Origin: Allobosea vaviloviae
GTDB lineage: Bacteria > Pseudomonadota > Alphaproteobacteria > Rhizobiales > Beijerinckiaceae
DNA: 64,000 nt
Reading direction: 5' to 3'
NCBI RefSeq assembly: GCF_001298265.1
Contig: NZ_LGSZ01000048.1
Location: 62,001-126,000, forward strand
How positions within the stretch are numbered: position 1 is the stretch's first letter; each line of letters opens with the position of its first letter. The translations under genes were made by a program, and so were the position numbers. The notes beneath the pieces were generated by a model. It ran no database searches and was not told the origin of the DNA. It saw only the letters and a list, made by a program, of their open reading frames with translations. Positions 20,552 through 26,915 of the stretch are shown one piece after another.

Positions 20552-22609
20552 TCAGCCGGCCAGCACGAAACCGTCATCCTGCGCCGCCATCGCGACGGCC
20601 GCCTCCAGATCCGGTCCGGCCGAGGCGTGGATGGTGAAAAGGCCCTCGCCAACCGCGACATCGTCGCCGACCCGGCGCAGCAGATCGATGCCGGCGCTCT
20701 TGTCGAAGGGCGCGCCGGCGCGGCGTGCAATGCCGGACATGCACCAGCCATCGATCTCACCGATCCGGCCCGCTCGTGCCGCCCGCACCGTGTGGGTCAG
20801 CGCGGCCGGCCTCGGCACGACATCGCGCCGTCCCTGCGCCGCGACGATCGCGTCGAGAGCCTGGCGAGCCGCCCCCGATGCGAGCAGCTCGGTCGCCCGC
20901 GCGCGGCCATGTTCCAGCGTCGCGATCGCCGGGTCCCAGGACAGGATGCGCCCGGCGAAGGCGAGCGCCTTGTCGCGCAGGTCGGTGGGAGCCTCGGTAT
21001 GGCCCTCCAGCACCCAGAGCACGTCGCGAACCTCCAGCGCCGGGCCGATGCCGCGCCCGATCGGGCCAGCGCCACAGGTCGGGATGGCCTCGACATGCAA
21101 GCCGACGGCACGGCCGACCGTCTCGAACAGCGCCCCGAGTTCCACGGCTTCCGCCTGGTCGCGTAGCTTCGCCCGCCGCCCATAGGGCAGGTCGACGACG
21201 ACATGGGTCGAGCCGGCCGTCAGCTTCTTGGAGATGATCGAGGCAACGGACCAGCGATTGGAATCGATCCCGAGCGGGCGCGTGATCGCGTTCATCACGT
21301 CGTCGACGGCGGAATGGTTGAGGCGGCCGTTCCAGGCGATGCAGGCGCGGGCCTGCGCCACGGTGCGGCGAACCTCGTCTTGGGTGAGATCGACCTTGGC
21401 CAGCACCTCCATCGCATCGGCCGTTCCGGCCGCCGAGGTGATCGCCCGCGACGAGGTTTTGGGCATCGCCAGCCCATGGGCTGCGACGATCGGCGCCACG
21501 ATCAGCGTGATGCGGCTGCCGGGTATGCCGCCCATCGAATGCTTGTCGACGACGATCGGCTCGTCCCAGCGCATCGGCGTGGAGAAGCCGGCGCGGACAA
21601 GGCTGAGCGCGCCGACCTCGGCATCGCTGAGCGAGCGCGTCGCGGCGACGAGGAAGGCCGAGATCTCACCTTCGGGATAGCGCCCCTCGACGATGTCGCG
21701 CAGCAACATCGCGTATTGCGCGGCATCGAGTTCGGCACCCTGGATCTTGGCGCGCAGCGCGTCGCGGCTGTGCTGTGGCGGGGTGCGGGTCAGCGTGATT
21801 TCGCTGCCCGCGGGCAGCGCCAGCTGGGCGAAGGCCTCGCGCGACAGGCCGATCTCGTCGGGTTCGAGCAGCCAGCCGGGCTCGACAACGTTGATGCGGG
21901 CGCGGATGCTGCGGCGATTTCCCTGCGCATCGGGCTGGCCGGCGACATCGACCCGGCCCGGCCCGTCGAAATCCTCGACGCCGAGCAGGCTGTCGCGGGG
22001 CAGATAGGCGATGGTGTCGCGCCAGGCGTCGATCGGGATCGGCTTCAGCACGAGGCGGCGGGTCGCGGCATCGATCGCGGCCAGGACATGCTCGACGCCC
22101 TCCTCGACGGTGCCGTCGTTCGAGACGGTGATGGTCTCGATGCCTTCAGGCCATTGCGGCGCGGCGCGGGCGAGACGTGCCGCGATGTCGGCGGCGGTCT
22201 CGCGCCCACGGGCGGCGAGCCGGCGGGCGAGCGTCTCGGGCGAGGCAGTGATGTTGATGATGATCAGGCGCGTCACCGCGGCAGCCAATACCTCCAGCAC
22301 GCCGCGCGAGCCATTGGCGATGACGTGCCTGCCCTGCGTGAGGTCGTCGCGCAGGGACGCGCGCAGGCCGTAATGCAGGCCATGGGCATTCCATGAGACC
22401 AGAAGCCCGCCGGCGGCGGACAGCGCGGCGAAGCCCGCCTCGTCGATCGCCTCGTGATCCTCGCCGCCGGCATCGGCCGGGCGGGTGATCAGGCGCCGGG
22501 CGAAGCCGAAACGGCCGCTGTCGGACAACGCCGCCCTGGCGCCGTCCATGAGCGTGTCCTTGCCAGCGCCACTGGGGCCGACGACGACGAAGAGGATGCC
22601 TGGCCGCAT
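20552..22609 (-). CDS. Fusion: ribose 1,5-bisphosphokinase (PhnN) + AMP/thymidine-phosphorylase-family enzyme
   Basis: One uninterrupted 685-residue frame joins two full-length enzymes. Residues 1-182 are PhnN: P-loop GPSGAGKDT (11-19), RRLITRPADAGGEDH and the lid RGRETAADIAARL; PhnN phosphorylates ribose 1,5-bisphosphate to PRPP. Residues about 187-685 are a type III nucleoside (monophosphate) phosphorylase: the N-terminal barrel-like domain, then VDKHSMGGIPG (354-364), PKTSSRAITSAAGTADAME (383-401) and SKKLTAGSTHVV. Archaeal relatives cleave AMP with phosphate to ribose 1,5-bisphosphate, which is the PhnN substrate. The ATG at 22609 lies 16 bases after the nadC stop; open frame further upstream overlaps nadC and is rejected. 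No phn C-P lyase genes are nearby. Domain identities are secure; NMP specificity and channelling are inference. Confidence 0.88.
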   Translation of the reverse strand: MRPGILFVVVGPSGAGKDTLMDGARAALSDSGRFGFARRLITRPADAGGEDHEAIDEAGFAALSAAGGLLVSWNAHGLHYGLRASLRDDLTQGRHVIANGSRGVLEVLAAAVTRLIIINITASPETLARRLAARGRETAADIAARLARAAPQWPEGIETITVSNDGTVEEGVEHVLAAIDAATRRLVLKPIPIDAWRDTIAYLPRDSLLGVEDFDGPGRVDVAGQPDAQGNRRSIRARINVVEPGWLLEPDEIGLSREAFAQLALPAGSEITLTRTPPQHSRDALRAKIQGAELDAAQYAMLLRDIVEGRYPEGEISAFLVAATRSLSDAEVGALSLVRAGFSTPMRWDEPIVVDKHSMGGIPGSRITLIVAPIVAAHGLAMPKTSSRAITSAAGTADAMEVLAKVDLTQDEVRRTVAQARACIAWNGRLNHSAVDDVMNAITRPLGIDSNRWSVASIISKKLTAGSTHVVVDLPYGRRAKLRDQAEAVELGALFETVGRAVGLHVEAIPTCGAGPIGRGIGPALEVRDVLWVLEGHTEAPTDLRDKALAFAGRILSWDPAIATLEHGRARATELLASGAARQALDAIVAAQGRRDVVPRPAALTHTVRAARAGRIGEIDGWCMSGIARRAGAPFDKSAGIDLLRRVGDDVAVGEGLFTIHASAGPDLEAAVAMAAQDDGFVLAG

Positions 22610-22625
22610 GATCCCGGTATCGCCT

Positions 22626-23459
22626 TCAGGCCTCGTCGAGTCCGATATCGACCGCGGGGGCCGACTGGGTGATCTTGCTGGTCGAGATGTAGTCGACGCC
22701 GGTCTCGGCAATGGCGCGAATCGTCTCGTAGCGGATGCCGCCCGAGGCCTCGATCTTGGCGCGGCCTGCGACATAGGCCACCGCTTCCTTCATCTCCGGA
22801 ATCGGCATGTTGTCGAGCATGATGACGTCGGCGCCGGCCGCGACCGCGTCGCGGACCTGATCCATCCGGTCGCATTCGACCTCGATCTTGGTCAGCACCG
22901 GCAGCCTCTTGCGGGCCCGCTCGACCGCCTGGGCGATGCCGCCGCAGACCGCGATGTGGTTGTCCTTGATCATCACGCCGTTGTCGAGCCCGAGGCGATG
23001 GTTCAGCCCGCCGCCGCAGGCGACGGCGTGCTTCTCCAGCATGCGCAGGCCGGGCGTCGTCTTGCGGGTGTCGATCAGGCGGGCCGAGGTGCCCTTGATG
23101 ATCTCGACATAGCGCGCCGTCTCGGTGGCGATGCCAGACAGGCGCTGGACGATGTTGAGCGCGGTGCGCTCGGCGGTGAGGATGCCCTGGGCCGGGCCCT
23201 CGACCAGGATCAGCGTCGCTCCGGCCTCGACGCGGTCGCCATCCGCGACCTCGACCTTGAGCGACAGCCTGGGCTCATAACGCTGGAAGATGGCGGCAGC
23301 GACCTCCATGCCGGCCAGCGTCATCGGCTCGCGGGCGTTCATACGGAAGGCGCCGGTCTCACCGGGCTCGATCATGAGCTGCACGGTCAGGTCGCAGGAG
23401 CCGATGTCCTCCTGCAGCCAGAGGTCGATCAACCGCTGCGTCTGGAAACGGTCATACAT
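22626..23459 (-). CDS. nadC: Nicotinate-nucleotide pyrophosphorylase (quinolinate phosphoribosyltransferase)
   Basis: A 277-residue type II phosphoribosyltransferase, usual length about 280. Key segments: AERTALNIVQRLSGIAT, the PRPP/quinolinate-binding DTRKTTPGLR, CGGGLNHRLGLDNGVMIKDNH, EVECDRMDQV and ASGGIRYETI. It converts quinolinate and PRPP into nicotinate mononucleotide with loss of CO2. nadA and nadB are absent from the flanks; instead the next gene makes PRPP, so the operon may pair PRPP supply with its use. A ModD-type relative is an alternative, but no molybdenum genes are near. It is the first gene of the pair and follows a 509-bp regulatory gap. Confidence 0.87.
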   Translation of the reverse strand: MYDRFQTQRLIDLWLQEDIGSCDLTVQLMIEPGETGAFRMNAREPMTLAGMEVAAAIFQRYEPRLSLKVEVADGDRVEAGATLILVEGPAQGILTAERTALNIVQRLSGIATETARYVEIIKGTSARLIDTRKTTPGLRMLEKHAVACGGGLNHRLGLDNGVMIKDNHIAVCGGIAQAVERARKRLPVLTKIEVECDRMDQVRDAVAAGADVIMLDNMPIPEMKEAVAYVAGRAKIEASGGIRYETIRAIAETGVDYISTSKITQSAPAVDIGLDEA

Positions 23460-23549
23460 GCGCTGCAGCCCCTGACACGCGCTCCCGCAACCTTGGCGCG
23501 GGCCTCGCCATGGGGAGCAAATAGCATGGATGGCCCGATATCATGACCG

Positions 23550-23561
23550 TTTGTGTACCAA
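23550..23561. promoter_or_regulatory. Candidate operator, copy 1
   Basis: TTTGTGTACCAA matches the palindrome TTGGTATACCAA at 10 of 12 positions and resembles FadR/GntR-type operators. It lies 91 bp upstream of nadC. A second copy at 23740 shares TGTRTACCAA. Confidence 0.3.
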
Positions 23562-23739
23562 CGATGCTGAGCGGATCCCGGGCTGTCAAGCAAGGAATGG
23601 AGCGCGATGCTCGGGATGACCAGCTCTCGACGCCTCCACGCTTGAAATCGGGCCTGTATCGCCGTTGGCGCGCTAAATTCGCAAGCAATTGCTGCACCGC
23701 CCGCCGCCAGATTGGGCGAGAACCAGCATTGACAAGCCA

Positions 23740-23751
23740 TATGTATACCAA
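23740..23751. promoter_or_regulatory. Candidate operator, copy 2
   Basis: TATGTATACCAA matches TTGGTATACCAA at 10 of 12 positions. It follows a TTGACA box (23729-23734) by 5 bases, so a bound regulator would sit on a promoter reading toward the TRAP genes. No good -10 box was found. Confidence 0.3.
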
Positions 23752-23914
23752 CAAACTTCACCTCGTCCCGCGCAAGACTTCTATGCGGCGGGCAAGACAC
23801 AAACGCTACGAAGCGGCTTGAAGCCGCCGGGGATTGACAGCTACGGCAGATCATCGACGCACAGTCGCGGGCGATGAGCATTTGGTTTGTGGCCCGTCAG
23901 CCGGGCCACTCATG

Positions 23915-23968: not shown

Positions 23969-24952
23969 ATGAAAAGACTCGCAATCGCAACCATCCTGGC
24001 GGCATCGCTGGGCCTTTGTGCCGGCCTGAGCCAGGCACAGACCGCCGCGACCAAGAAGATCACCCTGACCGGCGGCTCCGTCGGCGGCGCCTGGAGCGCC
24101 ATCGGCAATGCGATCGGCGAGACGATCCGGCGTGAATCGCCCGGCGCCTCCTTCGGCTACGAGCCCGGGCGCGAGGCCGCCAACATCCAGCTCGTCTCGA
24201 CCGGAAAGGTCGAGCTCGGCATCGCTCATGCGCAGCTCATCAAGCGGGCGCAGGCGGGCGAGGAGCCGTTCAAGGCGCCGATCACCAATCTGCGCGCGAT
24301 CGCGCTGATCGACCCGACGGCCGCGGTGCAAATTCTCGTGCGCGAAGATGCCGGGATCGAGAGCTTCGAGAGCATCCTGGCCGCCAAGAAGCCCGTACGG
24401 ATCGCGCTCAACCAGCGTGGCACGCTGATGGCCGTGACCGGCGAAGAGGTGTTCAAGGCCTACGGCATCACGGCCAAGGACATCGAGGGCTGGGGCGGCC
24501 GCATCCACCATGTCGACTACAATGCCGGCCTGGAGATGATGAAGAACGGACAGGTCGATGTCATCATCAACATGCTCGCGTTCCCGTCCGGCCAGATCAA
24601 CAGCGCCACGCGGGAGATGAAGGTCAAGATGCTCGGCATCTCGCCCGAGGCGACCGCCAAGCTGGGTGCCCTGCTCGGCACGGCGCCGATCACCGTACCG
24701 GCCGGGACCTATGCCTTCCAGCCGGCCGCGGTGCCGACCATCACCGGCAGCGTCGTGCTCTTCGCTTCGGCCGAGATGAAGAACGAGGATGCGGCCCTGA
24801 TCGTCGACGGCATGATCAAGCATTTCGACTATCTGCGGCAGGCCCATGCGATGATGGCCCGGCTGGAGCCGGTCAACCTGACGCAGACCGCGCCGCTGGC
24901 CCTCCACCCCGGCGCAGAGGCCGCCTATCGGAAAGCCGGCCTGCTGAAGTAA
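23969..24952 (+). CDS. TAXI-family TRAP transporter solute-binding protein
   Basis: A 327-residue periplasmic binding protein of the TAXI type. A signal peptide (about 1-24, ending SQAQ) is followed by the family opening ITLTGGSVGGAWSAIGNAIG. Central segments KVELGIAHAQLIKRAQAG and GQVDVIINMLAFPSGQI shape the ligand cleft. ATG at 23969 with GGGAGGGC just upstream; the frame upstream is open to 23834 but crosses the leader hairpin. Ligands of TAXI systems include glutamate and other carboxylates; this one is unassigned. The fused permease follows 46 bp downstream. Confidence 0.92.
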   Translation: MKRLAIATILAASLGLCAGLSQAQTAATKKITLTGGSVGGAWSAIGNAIGETIRRESPGASFGYEPGREAANIQLVSTGKVELGIAHAQLIKRAQAGEEPFKAPITNLRAIALIDPTAAVQILVREDAGIESFESILAAKKPVRIALNQRGTLMAVTGEEVFKAYGITAKDIEGWGGRIHHVDYNAGLEMMKNGQVDVIINMLAFPSGQINSATREMKVKMLGISPEATAKLGALLGTAPITVPAGTYAFQPAAVPTITGSVVLFASAEMKNEDAALIVDGMIKHFDYLRQAHAMMARLEPVNLTQTAPLALHPGAEAAYRKAGLLK

Positions 24953-24998: not shown

Positions 24999-26915
24999 AT
25001 GCCGCCCTTGCTGAAGCTGCTGGCACCGGGACGACCCCGCCAGCTCGATGCACCCGAGCAATGGACGGTGCATATCGTCGGCGTCGCCACCGCGGTTCTG
25101 CTGCTGGCGATCTCGTTCGGCTGGTATGTCAACCGCGAGATCGCGCTGTTCCTGTTCCTCGGAGCCGTTCTGTCGCTCGCCTTCCTGACGACGACGGCCA
25201 ATCCATTGCGCCGGACCGGCCGCTCCTGGTGGGCCTGGGGCCTGGTCGGCCTGTCGGTTTCCTCATGCGGCTACTTCATCGCGATGCATCCCGTCCATGA
25301 GATGCGCCTGCCGATGATCGACGAACTGTCCAACCTCGATATCGCCGCCTCGATCGTGTTGATCGCGCTGGTGATGGAGGCGACGCGGCGCTGCATCGGC
25401 ATGATCCTCGTCGTGCTGGTGGCGACCTTCCTGGCCTATGCCATCTTCGGCAGCAAACTCTCGGGCGCCTTCGCGCATCGCGGCTTCAGCACGCAGGAGA
25501 TCGTCGACCATCTGGTCTTCTCGACCAACGGCCTGTTCGGGCCGGCGCTCGAGGTCGCCGCCTTTCTGGTCGTCGTCTTCGTGATCTTCGGCGCACTGCT
25601 CGACCGGATCGGCGGCGCGGACTTCTTCTACGACGTCGCCAACAGTCTCGTCGGCAAGCAGGTCGGCGGCGCCAGCAAGGTCGCGGTCGTCTCCTCTGGT
25701 CTCTATGGCTCGATCTCGGGTTCGCCGACGGCCGACGTCGTCACCACCGGCTCCTTCAGCATCCCGCTGATGATCCGCACCGGCGTGAGCCGCACCTATG
25801 CGGGCGCGATCGAATCGGCGGCCTCGACGGGCGGCGCGCTGCTGCCGCCGGTGATGGGCTCGGCGGCCTTCCTGATGACCGACTTCACCGGCATCCCCTA
25901 TGCGACGATCGCCCTGTCGGCGCTCGTTCCGGCCCTGCTCTATTATCAGTCGGTCTTCCTCGCGGCGCATTTCCGCGCGCATCGCGACGGGCTCGAGCCG
26001 ATGTCGCATGGCGAGGCTCCGTCGATCCTGACCGTGCTGCGGCGGGACTGGCTTTACCTCGTCCCGATCGGCCTCTTGGTCTGGGGCGTGCTCAACCTCA
26101 ACCGCCCGTCCTTCGCCGGCGCCATCGCCTGCGCCGCCCTGCTGCCGGTCGCGCTGCTGCGGCAGCGGAGTCCGGTTCAACTCGTCAAGACGCTTTTCTT
26201 CGGCCTCAGCGACGGCATGCGCGGCATGATCGGCGTCGGCGTCGCCTGTGCCATCGCCGGGCTCGTCGTGGGCACGCTCTCGATGACGGACCTCACCGGC
26301 AAGATCAGCTCCGGCCTGTTCCACATGGCCGGCGGCAGCCCGATCCTGACCATCATCGTCGCCGCCTTCGTCATCATCGTGCTTGGCATGGGCATGCCGA
26401 CGCCGGCCGTCTATGCGCTCTCGGCCGTGCTGGCCGCGCCGGCGCTCATCGCGCTCGGGATCGCGGTGCTGCCGGCGCATCTCTTCATCGTCTACATCGC
26501 CTCGATGTCGGCGATCACGCCGCCGGTCGCGGTCGCTGCCTTCGCTGCGGCCTCGATCGCCAAGGCCAATCCGGTGATGATCGCGCTCGTCGCCTGCCGG
26601 ATCGCGATGGTGGCCTTCATCCTGCCCTTCGTCTTCATGTACCAGCCGGCCCTGCTGCTGGTGGGATCGCTCTGGCAGATCGTTACAGCCGTGGGGGCGG
26701 TCGCGCTCGGCGTGCTCGCCCTCAATGCGGCGATCGAAGGCTATTACATCGTCATGCTCGACCTGACGAAGCGCGTCCTGCTGTTTGCGGCCGGCGTCGC
26801 GCTGTTCCTGCCGTTCCAGAGCCTGCAGATAACGGGCGCGCTGTTGCTGGCGGCCGTGACGGCCTGGCTATGGGCGGGCAAGCGGGCCACGCGAGCGACG
26901 CCGGGGATCGCATAG
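24999..26915 (+). CDS. TRAP transporter fused permease (4TM-12TM)
   Basis: A 638-residue membrane protein in which the small (DctQ-like) and large (DctM-like) TRAP subunits are fused, as is normal with TAXI binding proteins. The DctM core shows SSGLYGSISGSPTADVVTTG, ASTGGALLPPVMGSAAFLM and the late VLGMGMPTPAVYALSAVLAA with repeated SITPPVAVAAFAAA-like elements. It is a Na+- or H+-driven secondary transporter. Start MPPLLKLL at 24999. It ends 29 bp before a large palindromic repeat. Confidence 0.92.
   Translation: MPPLLKLLAPGRPRQLDAPEQWTVHIVGVATAVLLLAISFGWYVNREIALFLFLGAVLSLAFLTTTANPLRRTGRSWWAWGLVGLSVSSCGYFIAMHPVHEMRLPMIDELSNLDIAASIVLIALVMEATRRCIGMILVVLVATFLAYAIFGSKLSGAFAHRGFSTQEIVDHLVFSTNGLFGPALEVAAFLVVVFVIFGALLDRIGGADFFYDVANSLVGKQVGGASKVAVVSSGLYGSISGSPTADVVTTGSFSIPLMIRTGVSRTYAGAIESAASTGGALLPPVMGSAAFLMTDFTGIPYATIALSALVPALLYYQSVFLAAHFRAHRDGLEPMSHGEAPSILTVLRRDWLYLVPIGLLVWGVLNLNRPSFAGAIACAALLPVALLRQRSPVQLVKTLFFGLSDGMRGMIGVGVACAIAGLVVGTLSMTDLTGKISSGLFHMAGGSPILTIIVAAFVIIVLGMGMPTPAVYALSAVLAAPALIALGIAVLPAHLFIVYIASMSAITPPVAVAAFAAASIAKANPVMIALVACRIAMVAFILPFVFMYQPALLLVGSLWQIVTAVGAVALGVLALNAAIEGYYIVMLDLTKRVLLFAAGVALFLPFQSLQITGALLLAAVTAWLWAGKRATRATPGIA

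Follow-up and report, generated by a model that had tools for sequence, protein, structure and literature searches.

A 64,000-nucleotide stretch of the Allobosea vaviloviae genome (contig NZ_LGSZ01000048.1, positions 62,001 to 126,000; hereafter the window) encodes on its reverse strand a protein in which a ribose 1,5-bisphosphate kinase of the PhnN type is fused to a phosphorylase of the nucleoside monophosphate (NMP)/thymidine phosphorylase family (Table 1). The gene lies directly behind nadC, which encodes quinolinate phosphoribosyltransferase, with 16 bp between the nadC stop codon and the ATG of the fusion, and the pair is divergent from genes for a tripartite ATP-independent periplasmic (TRAP) transporter. 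Because a longer in-frame start of the fusion, at 22774, falls within nadC, the ATG at 22609 was taken as the start. The open reading frame (ORF) of the TAXI-type binding protein is listed from 23834, but alignment suggests a likely start at 23969. The association of the fused enzyme with nadC, and the catabolic cycle that it might serve, are the subject of this analysis.

Table 1. Features of the nadC-fusion locus (positions within the window; strand given as + or -, or as a dot where none applies)
Feature	Position	Strand	Basis
PhnN-phosphorylase fusion (P0001)	20552..22609	-	one open frame, 685 aa
PhnN (ribose 1,5-bisphosphate kinase) domain, residues 4-180	22070..22600	-	TIGR02322
NMP/thymidine-phosphorylase-family domain, residues 186-682	20564..22054	-	PRK04350; Foldseek
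KTSSRAIT segment, residues 384-391, common to archaeal AMP/NMP phosphorylase	21437..21460	-	
Clade-specific segment, residues 427-443 (N427, R429, H432, N440, T443)	21281..21331	-	putative base-pocket placement
nadC, quinolinate phosphoribosyltransferase	22626..23459	-	TIGR00078 327 bits, cut-off 198.4
Palindromic operator-like site GTTTGTGTACCAAC before nadC	23549..23562	.	1 of 2 places in the genome with <=1 mismatch
Weaker copy of the site, 2 mismatches, TRAP side of the divergent region	23739..23752	.	
TAXI-type TRAP solute-binding protein	23969..24952	+	TIGR02122 146 bits, cut-off 84.35
TRAP transporter permease (DctM)	24999..26915	+	PF06808 1.1e-82

The fusion is a genuine single protein. 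A preliminary description of this DNA had read a PhnN and a phosphorylase in the one frame, and both halves indeed exceed the cut-offs of their NCBIfam families: the kinase half scores 190.6 bits against TIGR02322 (cut-off 156), and the phosphorylase half scores 589.8 bits against PRK04350, "thymidine phosphorylase" (cut-off 434), and 450.6 bits against TIGR02645 (cut-off 434.6). The frameshift near 22060 that the same description had considered as an alternative is not visible, since the GC content at third codon positions stays steady at 0.83-0.90 in 11 intervals covering residues 1-660, the junction included; this steadiness, together with the recurrence of a single frame in 74 of 80 related loci (see below), rules out a frameshift or assembly artefact. 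Among 49 aligned fusions, G11, S13, G14, G16, K17, D18, R130, R134, G135 and E137 of the PhnN half, which we take to belong to the P-loop and lid, are invariant, as is K384-S392 of the phosphorylase half (the KTSSRAITSAAGTAD segment), which is also present in the archaeal AMP phosphorylase structure 4ga5. An AlphaFold2 model built from the 49 aligned sequences reaches a mean predicted local distance difference test (pLDDT) of 90.8 and a predicted template modelling score (pTM) of 0.73, and Foldseek ranks archaeal AMP phosphorylase (4ga5, 4ga4) first for this model, pyrimidine nucleoside phosphorylase and thymidine phosphorylase (PyNP/TP) second and TrpD third. Two annotated plasmid records name the fusion simply phnN.

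A near-whole-length match to the fusion was found in 10 of 297 genomes sampled from the order, the window's own counted, and a whole-fusion match in only one of 249 genomes drawn evenly from the phylum, again the window's own; 29 other genomes of the phylum sample match the phosphorylase part only (E <= 1e-60). From a scan of named genomes the best 80 loci were kept, so that every count over 80 refers to close relatives; the loci come from Bosea, Rhodoplanes, Azorhizobium, Jiella, Roseovarius, Pseudomonas, Cupriavidus, Caballeronia, Variovorax and others. Controls were 11 loci of stand-alone phosphorylases (L045-L055), ten from other genomes of the order and one from the window's genome, two of them short (L048, 4.9 kb; L053, 11.5 kb). 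Of the 74 single-frame fusions, 73 were recognised by a regular expression for both motifs (including L085, which is cut by a contig end), and L102 adds one more. PhnN and phosphorylase are separate ORFs in four Pseudolabrys-type loci (L103, L105, L106, L109), in L118 a same-clade phosphorylase comes after nadC and the locus yielded no PhnN, and L119, a contig fragment, was not scored as fused. An unfused form of the set is seen in Pseudolabrys (L103:9085-12039), where each function has a gene of its own and phnN shares an ATGA overlap with the phosphorylase gene, nadC being the third member. Compared with the window protein, 18 of the 73 fusions lack about 70-95 residues between the P-loop and KTSSRAIT; these 18 (L120, L122, L123, L124, L126-L131, L133-L136, L138-L141) belong to betaproteobacteria and one Pseudomonas (L122), and in L123, the sequence that was read, the N-terminal domain of the phosphorylase is absent and PhnN nearly adjoins the helical domain.

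The most constant companion of the fusion is nadC, which is found near it in 75 of the 80 loci, compared with none of the 11 stand-alone phosphorylase loci. Three of the five loci without nadC lie at contig edges (L089, L111, L119), and two are true exceptions, L107, where the fusion stands behind genes that we take to encode cytochrome bc1, and L122. In 67 of 81 places nadC and PhnN are no more than 69 bp apart, and in eight, mostly in Cupriavidus, the gap is about 1 kb; the 81 measurements take in the window, L036-L038 and L142-L144, and the pairs L037/L125 and L038/L098 look duplicated. A gene with an FRG domain (L142:6484-7293) or its apparent relatives (cluster 14, 12 loci) also occurs near nadC and the fusion, with no apparent role.

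The NadC proteins encoded next to the fusion appear to form a lineage of their own. In a tree of 96 NadC sequences, a branch with support 100/99 parts 77 fusion-linked proteins from 18 others, with the very divergent L164 standing apart, and within the fusion-linked group alpha-, beta- and gammaproteobacterial sequences are intermixed. R98, R132, K133, H154, R155, K165, E195 and D216, presumably the catalytic positions of NadC, are kept in all 77. At least two NadC proteins over the cut-off occur in 16 of 39 genomes, and in all ten betaproteobacterial genomes searched another nadC adjoins nadA. Judged by sequence, the fusion-linked NadC is a working quinolinate phosphoribosyltransferase lineage, often present alongside a separate biosynthetic NadC. 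The window's genome has a single NadC, the fusion-linked one, and is among the 19 of 40 fusion genomes in which a search for the quinolinate synthase NadA found none.

Transport genes and genes of nicotinate breakdown are recurrent further neighbours. At least one of four transporter types is found near 61 of the 80 loci: TAXI-type TRAP (23), SsuA-like ATP-binding cassette (ABC; 20), Bug-family (14) and major facilitator superfamily (MFS; 5). A published study, in the parts available, reports that Bug27 and Bug69 bind quinolinate with submicromolar affinity, and that bug27 adjoins nadC and phnN in Variovorax and Jezberella (PMC11452294). Within the flanks examined, 18 of the 80 loci have a gene for 6-hydroxynicotinate reductase, six one for enamidase, and 20 either of the two; counting molybdenum (Mo) hydroxylases as well, the number rises to 25, although these matches may take in enzymes of other substrates, and with BpsR-like MarR relatives it reaches 35. 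None of these categories occurs at the 11 control loci. The gene names were assigned from annotated relatives, from the enamidase structure 2vun (8e-106) and from the BpsR structures 6pcp and 6pco. Genome-wide, 26 of 43 genomes, that of the window among them, yielded the 6-hydroxynicotinate reductase gene; in the window's genome, the end of another contig carries genes for a Mo-hydroxylase, 6-hydroxynicotinate reductase and a UPF0280-like protein (the UPF0280 name is our assumption; the family library label is PRK04334 hypothetical protein).

A candidate operator looks to be common to the nadC-fusion genes and the nicotinate-type hydroxylase and reductase genes. The palindrome GTTTGTRTACMAAC occurs at two places in the 64 kb, both in the region between nadC and the TRAP genes, which amounts to three strand matches compared with 0.04 expected. 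In the 5.6 Mb genome of the window, only two places match with at most one mismatch, the one before nadC and position 1489 of contig G000:C27, between a MarR gene and the gene for the FAD subunit of a Mo-hydroxylase, with an enamidase-like gene and two AA_synth genes beside it; the contig end that bears the reductase probably continues this operon, a join that we infer. Five Bosea-type loci (L070, L074, L076, L086, L108) have sites at three genes. One is located where the reductase ORF begins, probably ahead of the true start of this gene; another, with one mismatch, immediately precedes nadC; and the third, a perfect palindrome with two mismatches, lies 24-63 bp ahead of the MarR match. No site at two mismatches was found in L067, L069, L073, L077, L078 or L096; in L073 and L096, a similar palindrome before nadC can be recognised by eye. 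Near 25 of the 80 loci, and near none of the controls, lie genes for relatives of a MarR protein that has BpsR as its best match of solved structure, and BpsR has been described to respond to 6-hydroxynicotinate, according to the available part of the source (PMC6837509). BpsR-type control is unsupported in Cupriavidus, where the MarR proteins near the fusions are not BpsR-like.

The phosphorylase half itself holds clues to its substrate. Applying the rule that the fusion letter be present in at least 85% of fusions and at most 10% of the others, 18 positions set 49 fusions apart from 13 stand-alone enzymes, and seven of them fall within residues 427-443, which are proposed to form the base pocket. 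N, R/K, H, N and T/N stand at 427, 429, 432, 440 and 443 in 75 of 81 rows (the window plus the 80 loci, so that the unfused L118 and Pseudolabrys proteins are counted); the exceptions are L085, which is cut there, L111, L115 and L121 (N429), L090 (Y432) and L123 (H440, E443). The Thermococcus (TK) enzyme differs from the fusion in carrying G, A, L, I and E at these positions, stand-alone proteins show G-x-L-S/A-I/V-E in 17 of 17 distinct rows (Thermococcus included) and in 11 more, and four of six proteins encoded behind cytochrome bc1-type genes have S or A at 427. R444 is present in 77 of the 81 rows, and R444, S457 and K461-K462 are presumably base-site residues of the phosphorylase family. 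This residue change, which marks one clade, fits a new base as substrate but is no proof of it. A profile of the fusions aligns to TrpD (probability 98, E 2.2e-13), placing H432-S433 close to the "HHPAMK" motif, and the corresponding alignment of the stand-alone profile (probability 96.5) ends before the H432-S433 segment; a TrpD-like base pocket in the fusion is only a lead.

Taken as a whole, the gene content suggests that the nadC-fusion operon probably turns imported quinolinate into nicotinate by way of a recycled phosphoribosyl carrier. The divergently encoded TRAP transporter would import quinolinate, which NadC, by the established chemistry of its family, would convert with phosphoribosyl pyrophosphate (PRPP) into nicotinate mononucleotide (NaMN), CO2 and pyrophosphate (PPi). 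The phosphorylase half is predicted to split NaMN with phosphate (Pi) into nicotinate and ribose 1,5-bisphosphate, the latter might be handed between the two halves, and the PhnN half would use it with ATP to form ADP and PRPP, which could return to NadC. This kinase reaction is established for the PhnN family (PMC9700705, in the part available). The net conversion would be quinolinate + ATP + Pi -> nicotinate + CO2 + ADP + PPi, and nicotinate would then enter the 6-hydroxynicotinate pathway, encoded elsewhere in the window's genome under apparently the same operator. Because the fusion is tied to NadC, to quinolinate-type uptake and to nicotinate catabolism, NaMN is the likely nucleotide and PRPP is probably recycled; moreover, a nucleotide destined solely for nicotinamide adenine dinucleotide (NAD) would have no need of a neighbouring phosphorylase. 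We lean towards a catabolic cycle that would regenerate PRPP as its carrier and in which quinolinate would lose a carboxyl group through a nucleotide that is built and then dismantled. What can be read directly from the DNA is the fusion, the intact nadC, their co-occurrence, the operator-like site in common and the nicotinate-type catabolic genes. The preliminary description, which had proposed a one-protein route from NMP to PRPP, was right in kind about the chemistry, and the two steps fit both the families and the model; its free-standing salvage role gives way to ties with nadC, a partner that it overlooked, and with nicotinate, which probably make substrate and purpose more specific.

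The nearest rival to this cycle holds that the fusion phosphorolyses AMP, CMP and UMP and that the PRPP so formed feeds NadC for the synthesis of NAD from imported quinolinate, with NaMN being kept. Such a feeder is chemically possible, and it agrees with the published view of the nadC-phnN adjacency, where, in the parts available, PhnN is proposed as the PRPP source for quinolinate phosphoribosyltransferase (QaPRT) (PMC11452294). It would suit the many fusion genomes in which NadA was not found, and the characterised archaeal relative acts on AMP, CMP and UMP, with NaMN unmentioned in the accessible part of the source (PMC9700705), which also speaks against NaMN as the substrate of the fusion. 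We nevertheless judge it unlikely, as it leaves unexplained the nicotinate-breakdown neighbours, the operator common with the 6-hydroxynicotinate reductase and hydroxylase genes, and the second, separate nadC of genomes with a nadA-nadC locus, and the concentration of clade-setting positions in the proposed base pocket argues in the same direction. More doubtful still is a general recycling of NMP (or of ribose 1,5-bisphosphate) to PRPP that would also serve the carbon-phosphorus (C-P) lyase pathway, the link to nadC being incidental and due to a PRPP need in common. PhnJ is present in 40 of 43 genomes, the fusion is the only PhnN over the cut-off in the window's genome, with none seen in its phn-like cluster, and six genomes that have the fusion behind cytochrome bc1-like genes yielded no NadC; yet the frequency of nadC at the fusion loci is far beyond incidental, and in the genome G126 a PhnN distinct from the fusion lies some 3 kb away from PhnJ. 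Finally, the two halves might be a thymidine/uridine phosphorylase and an unrelated kinase, as the NCBI subfamily name "thymidine phosphorylase" and the fold common with PyNP/TP would allow. PhnN does not act on the (deoxy)ribose 1-phosphate that would then be formed, and the conserved coupling to PhnN makes sense only if the product is a 1,5-bisphosphate. Since KTSSRAITS is as in NMP phosphorylase, and sequence and fold are nearest to 4ga5/4ga4, this reading is very improbable; the window's genome also holds another match, at 30% identity (C1:270223), which we assume to be deoA-like.

However, several observations weigh against the conversion of quinolinate to nicotinate. The phosphorylase half reaches 377 bits against the AMP phosphorylase equivalog TIGR03327, below its cut-off of 535, and the 427-443 signature is not independent support for a particular substrate, because it marks one clade. 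The six bc1-associated genomes (L039-L044), all of one genus, have the fusion, and no NadC was found anywhere in them, and the Pseudomonas of L122 has the fusion without nadC at the locus and NadC elsewhere in the genome. Six of 39 genomes, and G126 as well, have NadA but no NadC over the cut-off other than the fusion-linked one, so that the enzyme must coexist with NAD synthesis there. Neither reductase nor enamidase lies within the examined flanks of 60 of the 80 loci, and 17 of 43 genomes yielded no reductase, although other nicotinate pathways were not searched genome-wide there; these 17 include all five Pseudomonas and all nine Cupriavidus/Caballeronia-type genomes searched. As to regulation, sites with two mismatches occur in the window's genome at the level of a control pattern, its MarR protein is closest to 2nnn, which has no stated function, with BpsR second, and the MarR near the Cupriavidus fusions is, as noted, not of the BpsR type.

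The preliminary description had placed the fusion outside phosphonate metabolism. In the window's genome, the gene for PhnJ and a phn-like cluster indeed lie on another contig, and the fusion is not in a phn operon; at the same time, no phnN was seen in this cluster (L176, G000:C47:78000-97000), where a gene that we presume to be DUF1045-like follows a phnM-like gene. No other PhnN of this genome passes the cut-off, and the fusion may therefore have a secondary part in phosphonate metabolism there. The same genome also encodes a second, stand-alone phosphorylase of the family (G000:C34:17222-18559; L002, L055), whose neighbours look to us like an MBL-fold hydrolase, a PRPP synthetase, a phosphoketolase and a P-type ATPase. 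Across the stand-alone loci, an MBL-fold-like cluster occurs in 11 and a PRPP-synthetase-like cluster in nine, and these neighbours suggest a scavenging route for RNA or NMP. Neither cluster has a member in the 80 fusion loci, and a general RNA-scavenging role for the fusion was rejected. The G126 locus L036 contains both a stand-alone copy and the fusion.

If the cycle operates, the fusion would hold the first NaMN phosphorylase known to us. The cycle would explain a possible use of NadC in bacteria without quinolinate synthase and supply a gene-level route from quinolinate into nicotinate breakdown, in which the phosphoribosyl group would be a reusable handle and the fused enzyme would restore PRPP at the expense of one ATP. 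The analysis also corrects an annotation: the name phnN alone conceals the phosphorylase, and one published interpretation may have been influenced by it (PMC11452294). The preliminary description knew of no described example of the fusion, and neither the fusion nor NaMN phosphorolysis nor a quinolinate-to-nicotinate conversion was found in open-licence PubMed Central (PMC) papers, of which only PMC11452294 was relevant; this paper reported the nadC-phnN-bug27 adjacency in 2024. Each part of the system comes from a known family, and in those papers no description was found of the joining of the two enzymes, of its link with NadC or of the proposed cycle.

Compared with the archaeal NMP (AMP) phosphorylase TK0352 of the Thermococcus pentose bisphosphate pathway, the fusion has the same fold, the same KTSSRAITSAAGTAD segment and a predicted phosphorolysis of 5'-mononucleotides. 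It differs at residues 427, 429, 432, 440, 442 and 443, falls under the TIGR03327 cut-off and is linked to nadC, and its ribose 1,5-bisphosphate would go to PRPP, whereas that of the Thermococcus pathway goes to ribulose 1,5-bisphosphate (RuBP). The kinase half resembles E. coli PhnN, a ribose 1,5-bisphosphate phosphokinase, in its TIGR02322 score over the cut-off and its GKD-containing P-loop, but it is fused to a phosphorylase and stands beside nadC, not in a phn operon. The stand-alone PRK04350 "thymidine phosphorylase family" proteins belong to the same family as the fusion half (39-46% identity), but they lack nadC in all 11 loci, and carry archaeal-type residues at 427-443; some records annotate genes beside them as MBL-fold hydrolase or ribose-phosphate diphosphokinase. 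With the 6-hydroxynicotinate reductase/enamidase pathway, which we take to be the nicotinate breakdown of the Eubacterium barkeri type, the fusion has in common enamidase, reductase, Mo-hydroxylase, UPF0280-like and AA_synth genes, which lie close by or look to be under the same control; nicotinate is the starting compound of that pathway, and an entry further upstream, from quinolinate, is proposed here. Another close known system is the Bug27/Bug69 quinolinate salvage of Bordetella and relatives (PMC11452294), which likewise combines nadC with a quinolinate-binding-type protein. There, PhnN was read as a supplier of PRPP for NAD synthesis, and the available text contains no word starting with "phosphorylase", whereas the fused phosphorylase and the nicotinate regulon described here point to a cycle.

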